This document shows, in pieces, positions 37,626 to 46,446 of a DNA stretch of 64,000 nt. The notes under the pieces are model-generated. The model was not told the DNA's origin. It saw nothing but the letters and a program-made list of their open reading frames with translations, and did not search any database. Every line of letters starts with the position of its first letter. Within the stretch, counting starts at the first letter, position 1. The position numbers and the translations under genes were made by a program. The stretch comes from Kitasatospora gansuensis (lineage in GTDB: Bacteria; Actinomycetota; Actinomycetes; Streptomycetales; Streptomycetaceae), in contig NZ_JACHJR010000001.1 of NCBI RefSeq assembly GCF_014203705.1, positions 7,936,001 through 8,000,000 on the forward strand, read 5' to 3'.

Positions 37626-38045
37626 ATGCCCACACCACCGGACGAGCTGACCAGAGAGGTCGTCGGCCTCTTCGCGGCCATCAACCGCCGCTACCTCCAG
37701 GAGTCCGAGACCGCCGCCGCCGCCCACGAGCTGACCCCGCTCCAGGCCAAGGCACTGCTCGCCACCGAGACCCCGGTCCCGATGCGCCGGATCGCCGACC
37801 GCCTGCACGCGGAGCCCTCCAACGTCACCGCGATCATCGACCGCCTGGCCGCCCGCGGCCTGGTCGAGCGACAGGCCGACCCGGCAGACCGCCGCGTCAA
37901 ACTCGTCGCCGCCACCGAGGCCGGCCGCACCGTCGCCGCCGACCTCCGCACCCGGATGCCGTTCGCCGACGCGCCTCTGGACCGGCTCAGCACCGAGCAG
38001 CGCGAGTCCCTGCGCGAGCTGCTACAACTGATCGTCGAGACCTGA
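37626..38045 (+). CDS. MarR-family regulator
   Basis: 139 residues. A winged helix ([58 protein letters not shown]) is flanked by N- and C-terminal dimerisation helices ([25 protein letters not shown]). The DxRxxxV wing is conserved. It probably represses itself and the divergent SDR gene through the operator at 37547-37578. Its end overlaps the convergent RNA ligase-like gene by 24 bp. Confidence 0.87.
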
Positions 38046-38660
38046 CGGCGGCCACCGCGCTTCGCCCGTACCGAGCGTGATGACGACCCGTACCCGCATC
38101 GGCCGGTCTCCCCGGCGGGACAGGACGACGAGCTCCGTGACCCGGGCGGGCATGCTGCCCAGGAGGGCGGCCAATTCGGGGGCAAGGGTGCGCGGATGCT
38201 TGCTCCGGCCCAGTGAGAGGTGCGGGGTGAACCCGTCGGCCCGGCTCCGGCAACGGGGGAAACGCTCCTGCAGCGCGTCGTGAAGTCTCTGCCAGGGGGC
38301 CGGGTCGGCCGCTGCCGGGTCGAGCCACAGCGTGGCGTCGTGACGGTGGCTGAAACTGCGTACCCCGCTGAGCCGAGCGGTGAACGGCTCGACCTCGGCC
38401 GCCGCGTCGGACAGCAGCGGGACCGCTCGGCCGAAGTCCGTCTCCGGTACGAAGCCGAAGAGCAGGTTCACGTGTGGCGGCCAGCGGCGGATCTGCCGGT
38501 CGTGCACCTCGCGGATGCGCTGGACGGCGGGCCACAGCTCCACCGGCGGGAGCCACGCCACCGCCGTGCGAGGCGTCGGCGGGCTGCCGAGCACACCCGG
38601 AGACTCGGCACCGTCGTTGGGTGAGAAGTCCGCGTCCACCTCACCATCGTCCGGCACCAC
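38022..38660 (-). CDS. 2'-5' RNA ligase/phosphodiesterase family protein
   Basis: 212 residues with the two HxT/S-like motifs of the 2H phosphoesterase fold: [11 protein letters not shown] (near residue 62) and TPHLSLGRS (near 147). In active enzymes these read HxT/Sx; the first here is HVN, a substitution. Members act on 2',5'- or cyclic phosphates in RNA or nucleotides. GTG 38660 (or 38657) starts the frame; the first 30 residues look disordered. It overlaps the MarR gene by 24 bp at the 3' end. Confidence 0.8.
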
Positions 38661-39756: not shown

Positions 39757-41148
39757 GTGCGCCCCAGTGCCGAGAAGAGTCGGCCCGAACCGACGGCGGC
39801 GGCCGGTCCGGACGCCGAACTCCTGGTGCGGGCCTCGGTCCTGCTCGCCGAGGCCGCGCTGGAAGTGCGCCGGGCCGGGGCCGGACTGACCGCGGGGGTC
39901 ACCGGGTGGCGGTTCGCGCTGGACGCGCTGCGTGAGCCGGTGCCCGCCGCGGTGGCGGCCGCCTCGGTGGCGCGGGCTCTGTTCAACCCGGCCGGGCTCG
40001 GGTTCGGGCCGGTCGGCGGGCCGGTGGGCGAGGCCATGCGCTGGGCCGGGGCGGTGACCCGCCGGAGGTCGGCCGCGGTGGGGATGGCGGCGGACGCGTT
40101 CGACCTGCGGGTCCGGGCGGCGGCGGCCGGGCATCCCAACCTGGAGTCGCCAATGGTGGCCCGGCTGGTCGAGGCGGTGGCGGCGGGGGAGCGGTTGGAG
40201 ACCGCGCGGGCCTGGTGCGCACTGGTCGAACGGCTGGGCGTGACAAGGGCGTTGACCACGATCGGCCCGGTGGCGCAGGAACTGCTGGCCTGGGCCGGGC
40301 TGTTCGACGAGAACCCGTTCAACGACGATGCCGCCTGGGCGATTCTGCACGGCGAACTGCCGCCGACAGACCCGGTGTTGGGCCTGCCGTCCGGCTGGAT
40401 CTCCTACCTGGAGCGCGGCCCGGGGAACGCCGAGGCGGTCGACCCCGACCCGCTGCTGGCCCGGACGATGGCCCACTCGGCCAACGACATCACCAGCTAC
40501 CTGGACAACATGGCCGCGCTGGGCAACCACGGCGCCGCCCTGCTCCGCCGGATCCACTGCACCGACGGCGAGACCCGCTACGTCCTGCTGCTGCCCGGAC
40601 TCTCCTTCGCCAAGCTCAGCAACAACACCCCCGCGGACCTGGCCGGCGGGATCGACAACACGGTGAACACCGACACCACGTACACCCGGGCGGCCCGGCG
40701 GGCCCTGGAGTCCGCGGGCGTTCCGGTCGGCGCCGAGCTGATGATCATCGGACACAGCCTCGGCGGGATGGCCGCGATGAACCTGGCCGCCGACCTGGAG
40801 TTCGTCACCACCTACCGGCTCACCCACGTCATCCCGACCGGCTCCGCGATCGACGACAAGCGCCCGGCCGACCCGGACACCAAGGTGATCAGCCTGGTCA
40901 ACGGCTACGACCTGATCACCGGCATGGACGGCCGCGGCCCGGCCGCCCCGCACGACCTGCCGCCCGGCTGGACCGAACTGGCCTGGCTGGACGCGACGTT
41001 CGACTACCCGCTCAGCCACTCACCGCAGGCGTACGCGATCTCGCTGCGCGGCCTCGCCGCACCGCAGCGGGACACCGCCAACGAGCTGCTGAGCCGCTAC
41101 GACGGCGAAATCGTCGGCAACCAGCTCTACCTGCTGCGCGACCGCTGA
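39757..41148 (+). CDS. Alpha/beta hydrolase, lipase-like, with helical N-domain
   Basis: 463 residues. The first 170 are Ala-rich helices (LLVRASVLLAEAALEVRRAG, MAADAFDLRVRAAAAGHP). The rest is an alpha/beta hydrolase: YVLLLPGLSFAKL, nucleophile elbow ELMIIGHSLGGMAAMN with Ser334, IPTGSAID, and a His in PLSHSPQAY. No signal peptide. The class-3-lipase-like elbow with an N-terminal helical bundle recalls hydrolases linked to actinobacterial type VII secretion, but there is no clear WXG motif here. GTG 39757 has GGAGGAGAG upstream. It is followed by the P450-like gene 20 bp later, so they form an operon. Confidence 0.8.
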   Translation: MRPSAEKSRPEPTAAAGPDAELLVRASVLLAEAALEVRRAGAGLTAGVTGWRFALDALREPVPAAVAAASVARALFNPAGLGFGPVGGPVGEAMRWAGAVTRRRSAAVGMAADAFDLRVRAAAAGHPNLESPMVARLVEAVAAGERLETARAWCALVERLGVTRALTTIGPVAQELLAWAGLFDENPFNDDAAWAILHGELPPTDPVLGLPSGWISYLERGPGNAEAVDPDPLLARTMAHSANDITSYLDNMAALGNHGAALLRRIHCTDGETRYVLLLPGLSFAKLSNNTPADLAGGIDNTVNTDTTYTRAARRALESAGVPVGAELMIIGHSLGGMAAMNLAADLEFVTTYRLTHVIPTGSAIDDKRPADPDTKVISLVNGYDLITGMDGRGPAAPHDLPPGWTELAWLDATFDYPLSHSPQAYAISLRGLAAPQRDTANELLSRYDGEIVGNQLYLLRDR

Positions 41149-41168
41149 CCCCCGGAAGGCTCAACCAA

Positions 41169-42671
41169 GTGACCACCGAAGCCGAGAAGCCCGTCCGCCC
41201 GCCGAGGCCGCCGGCCCTCTGGTCCTACGAGGGCGCCGTGCTCGGCGCCCTGCTGACCGCACGTCAACTCCCGTGGCTGGACGCACCGGCCCGCGCCCTC
41301 GGCGTCCGGTCGCTCACCCTGGACGGCCTCACCGAGCTGCTCGCCGGGCACCTGAACCGGATCCACGCCGGGCACCCGCTCCGACTGCCGACACCGCTCG
41401 GCACCTACCTGGTACCGGTCACCCGGCCGGACGCGAGCGACCTGCTCGAGGCCGCCCGGGCCGCGGGCGCGATCGGCCCGGGCGACGGGCTGGACCACGC
41501 GGGCCGCCCCCGGCGGCAACTCGCCTGCGCGGCCGTGCCCTACCCCGCCCGGGCGCTGGGCCGGACCGCCGCCGCGGTCGCCGCCCAGGAGATCGGCCGA
41601 CTGCCGGCGCACCGGGACACCGACGACCTGATCACCCCTCAGCAGTGGACCGAGGCGGCCAGGCGGATCGCCCGGCGGCTGGTGGCGGGGGACGCGGCGG
41701 CGGACGACACCGTACTGAGCCGAGTCCTCGCGGCCGCCGTGGACGCGGCCGGGACCCGCCGGGAGGCGGACTGGGCCGACGCGTTGCGCCGCCGTCTCGA
41801 CCCCTACCTGCGCGGCCCGGCCCGGGGCGGTCTGGCCGGGTACCTGGCACGGCGGGCCGAGCACCCGGACCCGGCACCCGCCCTCGAACACACCCTGGCC
41901 GTGGTCACCGACGCGCTCTGCCACACCGTCCCGCAGGCGATCGCGCTGACGAGTACCGATGGCGGTCCGGACAGCGCCGAGGACGCCGTCCGGACCGCGC
42001 TCGACCTGTGGCCGCCGATCGCCGCCACCACGTACCGGACCGGGGCGGCCTTCGCCTGGCACGGCGACCGGATCCCGGCCGGATCCAGGATCCTGTGCGC
42101 CTCCGCCGTGCTGAACGCGCTGGCCCGGCAGGACTCGGACCAGCCCACTTCCTCGGACGGGCTGCCCTCGCCGCTGTGCAGCTCACCCGAGCCGTGCCCG
42201 GCCACCCGGCTGGCCGTCCTGGTGGCCGAGACCGTGGTCCGGGCCGCTCTCGAGGCCACCCGCCCCGCGCTGCTCTCCCCGGCGCTCGACCCGCACCGGC
42301 TGCCGGGAGTCCTCGACCCCGGCGCGCTGCGGCTGGCGTTCCACGACCGGGCCGACGCGCCGCCCCGCAGCCGGGTGTCGCCGAACCGGGCCGGCACCTC
42401 CCGCGACCTCACCCCGCAGGGTGAACCGACCACCCACTACGCCCAGTTGGCGACGGCCGGGGCGACCCGGCTGACCCGGCACGCCGAGAGCCTGGCCAAC
42501 TGCGCCGAGGACGCCCGGTGGACCGGGCCGGTCGGCGAACGGTTCCGGATGGCCCTGCTGCGCCACGCCCGCCGCTGCGCGGTCACGGCGGCGGACCTCC
42601 GGCACGCCGCCGACCGGCTCGGCCGACTGCCCGGCGGGCCGGGCGGGTTGGGCGGCCCGGGCCGGTCGTGA
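41169..42671 (+). CDS. Degenerate P450-fold protein with WXG100-like C-terminus
   Basis: 500 residues. The middle matches the second half of cytochrome P450: LAVVTDALCHTVPQAIAL (I-helix region), LDLWPPIAATTYRTG (K helix end, 278-292), then SRILCASAVLN, and PEPCPATRLAVLVAETVVRAAL, where Cys343 matches the heme-thiolate position. The ExxR pair is replaced (TALD) and the FxxGxxxC frame is lost, so heme binding is doubtful. The last 90 residues are two helices around Trp451-Thr-Gly (ARWTGPVGERFR), as in WXG100 proteins. The start is GTG 41169. It is cotranscribed with the hydrolase. Confidence 0.72.
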   Translation: MTTEAEKPVRPPRPPALWSYEGAVLGALLTARQLPWLDAPARALGVRSLTLDGLTELLAGHLNRIHAGHPLRLPTPLGTYLVPVTRPDASDLLEAARAAGAIGPGDGLDHAGRPRRQLACAAVPYPARALGRTAAAVAAQEIGRLPAHRDTDDLITPQQWTEAARRIARRLVAGDAAADDTVLSRVLAAAVDAAGTRREADWADALRRRLDPYLRGPARGGLAGYLARRAEHPDPAPALEHTLAVVTDALCHTVPQAIALTSTDGGPDSAEDAVRTALDLWPPIAATTYRTGAAFAWHGDRIPAGSRILCASAVLNALARQDSDQPTSSDGLPSPLCSSPEPCPATRLAVLVAETVVRAALEATRPALLSPALDPHRLPGVLDPGALRLAFHDRADAPPRSRVSPNRAGTSRDLTPQGEPTTHYAQLATAGATRLTRHAESLANCAEDARWTGPVGERFRMALLRHARRCAVTAADLRHAADRLGRLPGGPGGLGGPGRS

Positions 42672-42674
42672 CCG

Positions 42675-43442
42675 TCAGGCGAAGCCGCCGTTGCGGCGGC
42701 GGCCGACCCACGCGTCCAGCGTGGTCTGGATCTCGGAGCGGACCTGCTCGGCGAGGGCCCCGGCCTGCGCCCGCAGGGTCGCCGCGTCGGCCGTCGGCCC
42801 GGTCGGGATCGGTGCGCCGAAGACCAGCGTCACCTTGGCCGGCAGCGGCAGCAGCCCGGCGAGACCGAACAGCGGCAGGGTGGGCGTGACGGGCGCGTAC
42901 GGCAGGTCGAGGAGGCGGGCCAGCGGCTTGCAGTTGGCCAGCACCGGGTACGCCTCCTCGGTGCCGATCACCGCGACCGGGACGATCGGCACGCCGGTGG
43001 CCATCGCCACGGCGGCGAACCCGCCACGGCCGAAGTCCCGCAGCCGGTACCGCTCGGCATAGCCCTTCCCCAGCCCCCGGGCCCCTTCGGGGTACGTCAG
43101 CACCAGCTGACCCTCGTTCAGCAGGCGTCTGGTGCAGGCCGGATCGGTGGCCCAGACCTGGCCGGAGCGGCGGGCCTGCTCGCCCAACACCGGTACCTTG
43201 AACAGAAGTTCGTCGGCGATCGCGTGCGCGGTCCGGGCCGCCGGGTGCTCGTGCCGGAGGGCGGAGACGATCAGCACCGAGTCGAGCGGGATCATCCCGG
43301 CGTGGTTGGCGGCCAGCAGCGCTCCGCCCTGGTCCGGCACGTTCTCCAGTCCGACCAGCTCGACCCGGAAGTAGTGCCGGGAGAGGAACCGGACCGCGGC
43401 GTCGATCAGTTGCCACGTGGAGTGCTGGGTGGTGCTGTGCAT
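42675..43442 (-). CDS. Lysophospholipid/1-acylglycerol-phosphate acyltransferase
   Basis: 255 residues of the PlsC-like acyltransferase superfamily. Block I is LLAANHAGMIPLD (His and Asp catalytic pair, near 45-52), block II RSGQVWATD, block III TYPEGARGLGK, and block IV VPIVPVAVIG. This spacing is typical of actinobacterial LPLAT paralogues. It transfers an acyl chain from ACP or CoA to a glycerol or other hydroxyl acceptor, at the inner membrane. ATG 43442 with AGGAG upstream. It is the last of a four-gene operon P450-ACP-KS-LPLAT and ends 3 bp from the convergent P450-like gene. Confidence 0.85.
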   Translation of the reverse strand: MHSTTQHSTWQLIDAAVRFLSRHYFRVELVGLENVPDQGGALLAANHAGMIPLDSVLIVSALRHEHPAARTAHAIADELLFKVPVLGEQARRSGQVWATDPACTRRLLNEGQLVLTYPEGARGLGKGYAERYRLRDFGRGGFAAVAMATGVPIVPVAVIGTEEAYPVLANCKPLARLLDLPYAPVTPTLPLFGLAGLLPLPAKVTLVFGAPIPTGPTADAATLRAQAGALAEQVRSEIQTTLDAWVGRRRNGGFA

Positions 43443-43465: not shown

Positions 43466-44683
43466 TCAGGGCGAGGTGAAGGCGAGGACCGCGTTGTGCC
43501 CGGCGAAGCCCAGCGACTGACTGAGCGCCAGGCCGATCCGCTGCGGCCGGGCCGTACCGGCCACCACGTCGAGATCGATCTCGGGGTCCAGCCGCCGGAG
43601 GTTGGCCGTGGGCGGGACCAGGCCGTCGCGGATGCTCAGGACGGTGCAGGCGGCCTCGATCGCCCCGGCCGCGCCGAGCGGGTGTCCGGTGACGCCCTTG
43701 ACCGAGGTGACGCTCGGTCCTGACCCGAGGGCGGCCCGGATCGCCCGGGCCTCGGTGACGTCGTTCAGCCGGGTGCCGGTGCCGTGCGCGTTGACGTGGT
43801 CGACCTCGTGCGCCGACGCCCCGGCATCGGCCAGCGCCCGCCGGATCGCGGCGGCCGCCATCGCCCCGGTCGGCTCCGGCGCGGCCGCGTGGTACGCGTC
43901 GTTGGTCGCGCCGTACCCGGCGACGCCGGCCAGCGGCCGCGCGCCCCGGCTCCGCGCGAACCCGGCGGACTCCAGCACCAGGACGGCGGCCCCCTCGCCC
44001 AGCACGAAGCCGTCGCGGTCGGCGTCGAACGGGCGGGACGCCCCGGCCGGGTCGTCGGTCCGTCGGGAGAGCGCCTTCATCCGGGCGAAACCGGTGCTGA
44101 TCAACGGGGTGAGCGAGGCTTCGCAGCCACCGGCCAGCACCACGTCGCAGGCGCCGGTGGCGATCAGCTGCCGGGCCTGGCCGATCGCGCTGGTGCCCGA
44201 GGCGCAGGCCGTGCAGACCACATGGGTCGGCCCGTGCACACCGAACTCGATGGCGATCGGCGCGACCGGCCCGGTCGGCAGCGCCATCGGCAGGAAGTAC
44301 GGGCTGACCTTGGCCTGCCCCTGCTCCAGCAGCCGATGGTGCTGCGTCTCCAGGGTGGTCGCCCCCCAGCCGCCGATGCCCAGCACCAGGCCGACCCGGG
44401 TGCCGTCCCAGCCGCGGTGGTCCAGCCCGGCCTGGGCGACCGCCTCGCGGACCGCGGTGAGGGCGAACTGCGAGACCCGGTCCAGCCGGTGGGCCGGCCC
44501 GGCGCCGAGCCGGGCCACCGGGTCGAAGTCCGGCACCCGGCAGGAGATGCCGACGGGGGAGTCTCCCAGCCCCGGATCGGCTGCCGCGACCGGGCGGCCC
44601 GCGCAGATCGCGGCCCAGCTGGGTTCCGTCCCCACCCCGGCGGGCGTCACCATGCCGATGCCGGTCACGACGGTGCGGATCAA
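43466..44683 (-). CDS. Beta-ketoacyl-ACP synthase (FabF/KASII-like)
   Basis: 405 residues of the thiolase fold. Cys160 in VCTACASGTSAIG is the acyl acceptor; His in NAHGTGTRLND and His in TGHPLGAAGA complete the Cys-His-His set. It condenses malonyl-ACP with an acyl chain. TTG 44683 overlaps the TGA of the ACP gene (TTGA), giving tight coupling; a GTG five codons later is the alternative. Sequence is FabF-like overall but the IGGWGATTLETQHHRLLE segment differs from housekeeping enzymes, and the genes around it are specialised. Confidence 0.87.
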   Translation of the reverse strand: MIRTVVTGIGMVTPAGVGTEPSWAAICAGRPVAAADPGLGDSPVGISCRVPDFDPVARLGAGPAHRLDRVSQFALTAVREAVAQAGLDHRGWDGTRVGLVLGIGGWGATTLETQHHRLLEQGQAKVSPYFLPMALPTGPVAPIAIEFGVHGPTHVVCTACASGTSAIGQARQLIATGACDVVLAGGCEASLTPLISTGFARMKALSRRTDDPAGASRPFDADRDGFVLGEGAAVLVLESAGFARSRGARPLAGVAGYGATNDAYHAAAPEPTGAMAAAAIRRALADAGASAHEVDHVNAHGTGTRLNDVTEARAIRAALGSGPSVTSVKGVTGHPLGAAGAIEAACTVLSIRDGLVPPTANLRRLDPEIDLDVVAGTARPQRIGLALSQSLGFAGHNAVLAFTSP

Positions 44684-44946
44684 CCGGACACCCGCAGGCC
44701 GGCCGCGGAACCGGTACCGTCCAGCCGCGCGGCGAGCTCCGCCAGCGGCACCCCGGACAGCTCGTACGGTGCGGAGCCGTCGGTGCCGAACTCCTCGGCG
44801 GCCAGCAGGACGAACTCCTCGGCCGCCAGCGAGTCCAACTGCAGCTCGGCGAGGGTGGCTTCGGGCGAGATCAGCGCGAAGTCGACCTCCAGCGGGCCGA
44901 TCAGGATGCGGACCAGCCGGGTGTAGGGGTCGTTCGGGTCGGTCAT
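44680..44946 (-). CDS. Acyl carrier protein
   Basis: 88 residues. The phosphopantetheine Ser39 lies in ELQLDSLAAEEF; the surrounding helices are acidic (ISPEATLAEL, FVLLAAEEFGTD). ATG 44946 has GGAGGA upstream, 30 bp after the P450 stop. The C-terminal extension (LAARLDGTGSAAGLRVSG) is longer than in fatty-acid ACPs. As neighbour of a P450 and a KS it probably carries the substrate of both. Confidence 0.88.
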   Translation of the reverse strand: MTDPNDPYTRLVRILIGPLEVDFALISPEATLAELQLDSLAAEEFVLLAAEEFGTDGSAPYELSGVPLAELAARLDGTGSAAGLRVSG

Positions 44947-44976: not shown

Positions 44977-46206
44977 TCAGAAACCATGGGTGGCGGGCCG
45001 CGCGGCCGAGACCGGCAGGCCGACCGGCTCGGTGAAGCTCGGCCCGGCGCGGCGGACCAGCCGCCCGCTGCGCCGGACGGCCGGGAGGTGTGGGGCGAAG
45101 CTCTCCAGGAACGCCGCCGCCTGGGCCCGGGCCAACGCCGCGCCGGGGCAGAAGTGGCCGCCCTGGCCGAACGGGAAGCCGGGCCGGTGGTCGCGTCCCG
45201 GATCGAAGTGGTCCGGGTCCGGGTAGCGGGCCGGGTCGCGGTGCGCGGCGCCGATCATGAGGTGCAGCACGGTCCCCGCCGGGACCGGCCGGCCGCCGAC
45301 CACCGTGGGGCGGTCGGCCCGACGGGTCGCCAGTTTCACCGGTGGGTCCCAGCGCAGCGTCTCCTCGATCAGCCCCGCCCGGTGCTCCGGGGCGGTGACC
45401 GACCGCTGCTGCTCCGGGGGCATCCGGAGCAGCCGGTCGCCCAGGTTGCCGAGCAGGTGCGTGGTGGTGATCAGCCCCGCCACCACCAGGGCGAACAGCT
45501 GGTCGACGGAGAACGTCACGTCGCCCAGGGCCGGTCCGTTCGCGGAGCGGTCCCGTTGGTGGGTGAACTGCTCCAGGTAGCACAGCAGTTGACCGGCCAC
45601 CTGGTCGGCGGCCAGCAGCTCGTCGAGCGGCCGCCGGATCTCGCCCCCGGTCGAGATCACGGAGGCCAGCCCGGCCAGCAGACCGGCATCACGCCCGGGG
45701 AACCCGACCAGCCGGCACAGCACCGCGGCGGGCAGCGGCTTGCACAGGTCATCGATCAGGTCCGCCGCCCGGTCCTGACGCAGGGTCAGGACGAACTGCT
45801 CGACCGCGACCCGGACCTGAGCCCGGATCATCCCGTCCAGGGCCGTCACCGAGCGGAGGGTGAGCGCCGCCACCACGGGGCGCCGGTTGACCGGGTGCTC
45901 CGGTGGGTTCTGCATCAGCAGCGAATCGCACAGCGCGGACGTGGCCGGACTGGCGCGCCAACCGGGCGTCCGCTCGTCCCGCCAGGCCGCGTCCAGCATC
46001 ACCAGCGCCGGATCGACCAGCGCCCGCCGCACGTCCTGGTAGCCCGGCACCAGGAACGCGCCCCACGGCGCGCGGACCAGTGGCCCCGCCGCCCGCAGCT
46101 CGGCGTACACCGCGCCGAGGTCCTCCGGATCCGGGGTCCGCAGCCAGCTCCGGACCAACTCCCGGGCCGGGGCAGGGGGCATCGTTTCTTCGGTCAGCGT
46201 GCTCAT
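44977..46206 (-). CDS. Cytochrome P450, non-canonical I-helix
   Basis: 409 residues. The heme-binding motif FPFGQGGHFCPGA ends with Cys353; the K-helix pair is Glu282-Arg285 in EETLRWD; PERF-like DPDHFDPGRD is present. The I-helix reads VVAGLITTTHLLG (242-254): the acid that normally precedes the Thr pair (AGxE/DTT) is Ile. This suggests unusual oxygen activation or acid supplied by the substrate, as seen for some ACP-bound or peroxygenase-type P450s. ATG 46206 follows GGGGAG. First gene of the operon with ACP, KS and acyltransferase. Confidence 0.87.
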   Translation of the reverse strand: MSTLTEETMPPAPARELVRSWLRTPDPEDLGAVYAELRAAGPLVRAPWGAFLVPGYQDVRRALVDPALVMLDAAWRDERTPGWRASPATSALCDSLLMQNPPEHPVNRRPVVAALTLRSVTALDGMIRAQVRVAVEQFVLTLRQDRAADLIDDLCKPLPAAVLCRLVGFPGRDAGLLAGLASVISTGGEIRRPLDELLAADQVAGQLLCYLEQFTHQRDRSANGPALGDVTFSVDQLFALVVAGLITTTHLLGNLGDRLLRMPPEQQRSVTAPEHRAGLIEETLRWDPPVKLATRRADRPTVVGGRPVPAGTVLHLMIGAAHRDPARYPDPDHFDPGRDHRPGFPFGQGGHFCPGAALARAQAAAFLESFAPHLPAVRRSGRLVRRAGPSFTEPVGLPVSAARPATHGF

Positions 46207-46446
46207 CGCGCCGTCGGCTCCCCTTCCGGTCTGGTATCCGCCCACAGCTCTTCCCCAACGAGGGGAGACGCTGCCCGGCACCGCACCGAAAGTCCAAATC
46301 ACCCTCACCGGATCCGACTGGTCGTTGGAATCCTGGCGAATGGGTGACCGATTGGAGTCGGCGGTCACCTGATCGGCCCTGCCGTGTTGCCCGTGCCGGG
46401 GTGACAGGGAAGCGTGGGCCGAATCGCCTGAAGTCGGAGGAACCTG

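Follow-up and report, generated by a model that had tools for sequence, protein, structure and literature searches.

We identified a conserved pair of adjacent genes in Kitasatospora gansuensis, one coding for a lipase-like hydrolase (A) and the other for a cytochrome P450-derived protein that ends in a WXG-like helical hairpin (B). As far as the literature searched shows, this pair is undescribed: the search, confined mostly to sources outside subscription journals, returned neither a P450–WXG protein nor an operon of this type. The descent of B from P450s and its WXG-like tail are established by computation. As to function, we give an even chance to the reading that the two proteins act as a unit within a lipid-type biosynthetic cluster, in which A would be an active acyl hydrolase and B mainly an adaptor.

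Organization and conservation of the gene pair

The window (that is, the whole stretch of 64,000 nucleotides analyzed) carries A and B on the same strand, with 20 nt between the stop codon of A and the start codon of B, and the two genes fill the interval under study (Table 1). A preliminary description of this interval had the P450-like protein "joined" to a hydrolase, which is accurate for the adjacency of the two genes and not in the sense of one fused protein; the residues that it listed for B (LWPPIAATTYR, Cys343, and Trp451-Thr-Gly) are all found in the B sequence. Just upstream of the pair, a gene of the 2′-5′ RNA ligase family (38022–38660) lies on the opposite strand.

Table 1 Features of the A+B pair and its downstream neighbors (positions in the window)
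Feature	Position	Strand	Basis
Gene A, lipase-like alpha/beta hydrolase, 463 aa	39757..41148	+	GHSLGG, Asp385, and His421 invariant in 25 homologs
Gene A nucleophile elbow GHSLGG (Ser334)	40750..40767	+	sequence; invariant in 25-member alignment
GGAAGG, ribosome-binding-like, 9 nt 5′ of the gene B GTG	41154..41159	+	sequence
Gene B, P450-derived, with C-terminal WXG-like hairpin, 500 aa, GTG start	41169..42671	+	
B P450-derived domain, about residues 1–395	41169..42353	+	hhalign against canonical P450s; Foldseek
B K-helix ExxR position, here TALD (276–279)	41994..42005	+	sequence
B haem-loop position LCSSPEPC (336–343)	42174..42197	+	Cys337 and Cys343 invariant in family
B C-terminal WXG-like helical hairpin, about residues 421–486	42429..42626	+	model; hhalign to standalone proteins
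B Trp451-Thr-Gly, hairpin turn	42519..42527	+	sequence
PlsC-type acyltransferase	42675..43442	-	Pfam Acyltransferase E 1.8e-17
FabF-type beta-ketoacyl-ACP synthase	43466..44692	-	
Acyl carrier protein-like gene	44680..44946	-	Pfam PP-binding E 0.01, below cut-off
Canonical cytochrome P450 with FGQGGHFC and ETLR	44977..46368	-	Pfam p450 E 1.4e-18

Whole-genome searches recovered 26 full-length B proteins, drawn from the family to which the window belongs and, in a single genome, from another family within that order; a contig search of genomes with a single B sequence as the probe gave no match. The layout is the same among these 26 homologs, and hence not a product of chance: A lies directly upstream of B on the same strand at 25 of the 26 loci, mostly at a distance of 17–130 nt, the exception (L101) being a B with a scrambled N-terminus and no A. 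When named GTDB genomes were probed with hydrolase A, 32 close loci were found—from Streptomyces, a Catenulispora MAG, Nocardia wallacei, and N. mexicana—and B followed directly downstream in every one of them (32/32; this set overlaps with that of the 26 B loci). The preliminary description had proposed a search for conserved hydrolase/P450-like pairs; this pair is real and is conserved in dozens of species, S. xanthophaeus and S. cirratus being examples of Streptomyces that have it. Both genes are under purifying selection, with dN/dS ratios of 0.26–0.53 for B (0.38 for the window pair; below 1 in both domains) and of 0.16–0.29 for A, which is the more strongly constrained. One Streptomyces-like genome (G881) harbors the pair twice, once in the window type (L102; B 77% identical) and once in the common type (L108), suggesting horizontal transfer.

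The setting of the pair is lipid or fatty-acyl synthesis. A PlsC acyltransferase is encoded nearby at 24 of the 26 loci, together with acyl carrier protein (ACP) genes at 15, FabF-type ketosynthases at 12, and a FabH-type synthase at six. In the window, the pair is accompanied by PlsC, FabF, a canonical P450, and a weak match to ACP; the P450 occupies the same place only in the nearest relative, L102.

Gene A encodes a lipase-like hydrolase

The A protein consists of an N-terminal all-helical domain (about residues 19–220) and a C-terminal catalytic domain. In an alignment of 25 homologs, Ser334 (within GHSLGG), Asp385, and His421 are invariant, and the topology of the model predicts the latter two to complete a Ser-Asp-His triad. 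The GxSxG elbow and these invariant residues bear out the earlier label "lipase-like hydrolase". Lipase_3 (PF01764) matched 23 of 25 A family members at E-values up to 0.01; A of the window is not among them and scores under the Pfam cut-offs, and Foldseek with the model of the hydrolase gave no significant match.

Related hydrolases occur in other arrangements. Two loci (L016 and L017) encode an A-type hydrolase with a C-terminal extension of 263–268 aa and, nearby, an animal-type haem peroxidase; at L017, which is part of a PKS region, a P450-like gene adjoins the peroxidase. Elsewhere in the window's own genome (L015:4204–13151; about 801–810 kb of contig C1), an A-paralogous hydrolase is fused to an acetoacetate-decarboxylase-like domain. 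Genes for a canonical P450, animal-type haem peroxidase, ketosynthase, and fatty acid desaturase adjoin it, as does one for a hairpin-like protein of 87 aa that lacks the Trp; together, they make up an oxylipin-like set.

Gene B descends from cytochrome P450s and has an altered haem site

B has no credible match in Pfam or NCBIfam, and Pfam matched none of its 26 homologs (0/26). Its likeness to P450s is visible to profiles only, with pairwise BLAST of B against the neighboring canonical P450 giving no match. A profile of the B family retrieved canonical P450s at E-values of 1e-20 to 1e-9, a canonical-P450 profile retrieved B of the window at 4.5e-15, and hhalign aligned the B family profile with canonical P450s over residues 1–394 (probability 99.8, E 3.2e-28). 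An AlphaFold model of B (mean pLDDT 82.3, pTM 0.73) was compared to the PDB using Foldseek: the 50 matches listed were P450s only (best E 2.3e-6), with TM-scores of about 0.35–0.55, indicating that B has a reduced version of the P450 fold. In a tree, B formed one clade (100/99) beside the canonical P450s compared, its branches being long and its exact placement unsure. Profiles, hhalign, Foldseek, and tree agree with the previous suggestion of a protein "built from a P450", and structure prediction, proposed alongside it, yielded this reduced fold followed by a C-terminal helical hairpin. Neither Pfam nor NCBIfam includes a model of the B family, which motif-based P450 surveys would overlook.

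At the haem site, B of the window has TxxD (TALD, 276–279) for ExxR and LCSSPEPCPA (336–345) for FxxGxxxCxG. Loss of the FxxGxxxC frame, already pointed out in the preliminary description, extends to all 26 homologs, in which Phe is replaced by Leu and the Gly residues at −4 and +2 are missing. The loss of ExxR that it also reported is correct for the window and not family-wide, the complete motif being kept in nine of the 26 relatives and in Nocardia. The Nocardia members, with ESGR, a PDRYAP meander, and C-x5-C, look by their sequences like possible intermediates. The meander of B is shortened, and in the 26 homologs 28–47 residues lead up to the Cys from the strand before it. Cys343, at the axial position, is retained in 26/26 homologs as well as in further Streptomyces and Nocardia members, and an added Cys at −6 (Cys337) is present in all 26. 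These two cysteines are under the strongest constraint at the haem site of B, the rest of which is less constrained.

The hairpin recurs as a standalone protein beside hydrolase paralogs

In the model of B, helices 421–446 and 454–486 form the hairpin (block pLDDT about 90), with Trp451 at the turn, in accordance with the WXG100-like hairpin with Trp451-Thr-Gly noted before. The Trp is present in 25 of the 26 homologs and the Gly of W-x-G in nine. The hairpin has no WXG100 family match above cut-off, and a test for homology to the genome's own EsxA/EsxB was negative.

Standalone genes, about 85 codons long and encoding W-[KDTQ]-G, were retrieved with a profile of the B hairpin; their products are homologous to the hairpin (hhalign E 6.5e-11) and have weak, sub-threshold Pfam matches to WXG100_2, T7SS_signal, and PPE. 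These genes adjoin paralogs of hydrolase A in two kinds of operon. The first kind runs from a TPP enzyme (benzoylformate decarboxylase family) through a GlcD-like FAD oxidase, a canonical P450, the hydrolase, and an animal-type haem peroxidase to the hairpin (for example, L121:1938–10080, L122, and L120); guessing from the enzyme types, this suggests fatty acid alpha-oxidation. The second kind comprises a canonical P450, a hydrolase remnant, and the hairpin. In this second kind, either the Ser or the entire catalytic domain of the hydrolase is gone, whereas both its N-terminal helical domain and the hairpin gene have been retained. At L147:4186–5247, an A-type N-terminal helical domain and a WXG-like hairpin even form one ORF from which the catalytic domain is missing—a single case, with sequencing error possible. 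This persistence and fusion suggest that the hairpin partners with the N-terminal domain of A.

The first seven loci with standalone hairpins had been found via the hairpin profile itself; 11 more were picked by hydrolase similarity alone, and in all of these (11/11) the hydrolase is followed by a same-strand hairpin gene, three of the hairpins being devoid of the Trp. At L142 and L146, the hairpin gene accompanies a hydrolase paralog with no P450 match adjacent. Hydrolase paralogs without the nucleophile Ser (e.g., GHGPGA and GHRLGA) occur at L116–L118, L146, and L152, mostly beside canonical P450s, a mirror image of the window pair.

Proposed role and alternative explanations

For the window pair, we infer docking between A and B, catalysis by A, a loss of P450 chemistry in B, and the kind of substrate. 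A would be an acyl hydrolase (lipase, thioesterase, or transacylase), whose substrate could be an acyl lipid or an acyl-ACP from the neighboring ketosynthase, ACP, and PlsC enzymes. Gene linkage and the one fused ORF suggest contact between A and B; by analogy with Esx and Lap hairpins, which dock on helical domains of their partners, the WXG-like hairpin of B may dock on the N-terminal helical domain of A. The P450-derived body would then present, gate, or stabilize the acyl substrate or the enzyme complex, and not perform ordinary mono-oxygenation. The P450 origin of B, its hairpin, and its tight link to the hydrolase all favor the scaffold protein envisaged in the preliminary description, and a scaffold role is its best-supported interpretation. 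Against B as an adaptor speak Cys343, kept in all members checked, and ExxR, kept in some relatives, both of which leave room for haem binding or catalysis, as well as the lack of any detectable homology between the hairpin and true Esx proteins. With confidence somewhat short of even, we extend the adaptor reading to a module that would recur in actinobacteria outside type VII secretion, composed of a hydrolase, a haem enzyme, and a WXG-like hairpin serving as assembly adaptor: in one lineage, fusion of P450 and hairpin may have led to a (pseudo)enzyme adaptor, and in another, the hydrolase is dead and the P450 canonical.

The type VII secretion link put forward in the preliminary description is unlikely. 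The architecture of a lipase with a helical domain and a WXG-like hairpin resembles that of TslA and its partners from Staphylococcus aureus (PMC10730906); alone, it could fit secretion, as could the sub-threshold Pfam matches of the standalone hairpins, and we therefore retain an effector pair of secreted lipase and WXG-like partner, like TslA/TlaA, as an alternative of very low probability. However, neither EccC nor an Esx homolog is encoded in 46 related loci (795 kb), and the neighbors of the pair are FAS-type enzymes. The F/YxxxD/E motif, which EsxA/EsxB of the window's own genome do carry (YSQTE/YQATE), is absent from the tails of all 26 B proteins and the C-termini of 13 standalone hairpins. 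The single EccC above the family cut-off in that genome lies at 2.45 Mb with EsxA/EsxB adjacent, about 5.5 Mb away from the pair at 7.98 Mb. Among the genomes surveyed for EccC co-occurrence, as likewise proposed beforehand, 24 of the 25 that have the pair and all 18 that lack it carry EccC (E up to 1e-60); G618 (100% complete, two contigs) has the pair and, with all candidates scored, no EccC above cut-off.

A more serious rival, though in our judgment a less likely one than the adaptor, is that B still works as a haem-thiolate enzyme. It would be a P450 or peroxygenase of an unusual sort, binding haem via Cys343 without ExxR and receiving fatty acyl substrates from A. The invariance of Cys343, the retention of ExxR in nine of 26 relatives and of both ExxR and the meander in Nocardia, and the paralogous operons that combine a hydrolase with canonical P450s would all fit this view, as would CYP157, a P450 described without ExxR according to a title cited in PMC3990721 (Rupasinghe 2006). 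It is countered by the joint absence from B of the window of Phe, both Gly, ExxR, and much of the meander, by the extra invariant Cys at −6, which suggests an altered role, and by the failure of Pfam to recognize a P450 in any of the 26 B members. That the hairpin is a tail which just helps B to oligomerize or keeps it stable, and has nothing to do with A, is improbable: hairpins commonly dimerize and the single-chain AlphaFold model has no partner contact, but standalone hairpins track A paralogs whether or not a P450 match is adjacent (none at L142 and L146), and one hairpin is fused to an A-type N-terminal domain (L147). Finally, most P450 motifs have been lost and L101 has B without A, as in a decaying pseudogene that is open by chance. 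This explanation was rejected, and is the least credible of all, since dN/dS is well below 1 in both domains; moreover, open frames and invariant residues persist across Streptomyces, Catenulispora, and Nocardia.

Comparison with known systems

Among P450s proper, CYP184A1 (7wzl/7wzm, with oleic acid) is the PDB entry that the B-related canonical P450s match best in sequence, and it is among the top structural matches of the B model; unlike B, both CYP184A1 and the P450s of the paralogous operons have a canonical fold and an intact haem site. CYP157 and other ExxR-less P450s resemble B of the window in that ExxR is missing and the cysteine kept. CYP157 is otherwise a recognizable P450, whereas B has lost the FxxGxxxCxG frame as well, has a shortened meander, and is invisible to Pfam. 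A survey of 48 Streptomyces genomes classed proteins without EXXR or CXG as fragments or pseudo-P450s (PMC6408508).

The tail of B shares with WXG100/ESX proteins (PF06013) a helical hairpin of about 65 residues with a Trp near the turn. Unlike those, B-type hairpins are fused or encoded in lipase operons, lack a secretion motif, and have no detectable homology to EsxA/EsxB. TslA is a type VII secreted lipase with the WXG-like partners TlaA1 and TlaA2 (PMC10730906), and A+B likewise combine a lipase with helical domain and small WXG-like hairpins; here, however, the hairpin sits on a P450 relic, F/YxxxD/E and a link to EccC are missing, and the cluster is one for lipid synthesis. Should the adaptor reading hold, a WXG-type hairpin would serve as an enzyme adaptor instead of a secretion signal.

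The closest precedents for B are EryCII and DesVIII, P450 homologs that activate glycosyltransferases; EryCII has a P450 fold without the haem cysteine, binds its glycosyltransferase via an added helix, and has been described as a scaffold (PMC3391682). The claim that no such case had been described was therefore too strong, even though these auxiliary proteins of P450 descent have neither a lipase partner nor a WXG-like domain. Like them, B is P450-derived, belongs to an actinobacterial biosynthetic cluster, and has an altered haem site, an extra helical element, and one enzyme partner encoded nearby. The partner is a glycosyltransferase for EryCII/DesVIII and, by gene linkage, hydrolase A for B. 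With the Nocardia members, which keep ExxR and meander, and the canonical P450s of the sister operons at hand, a route leading from enzyme to pseudoenzyme is open to testing. If our reading is true, B would be a second P450, independent of EryCII, to have become an auxiliary protein. In EryCII, the haem cysteine has been lost and an extra N-terminal helix is present, whereas B kept this cysteine in all members and has a C-terminal WXG-like hairpin.
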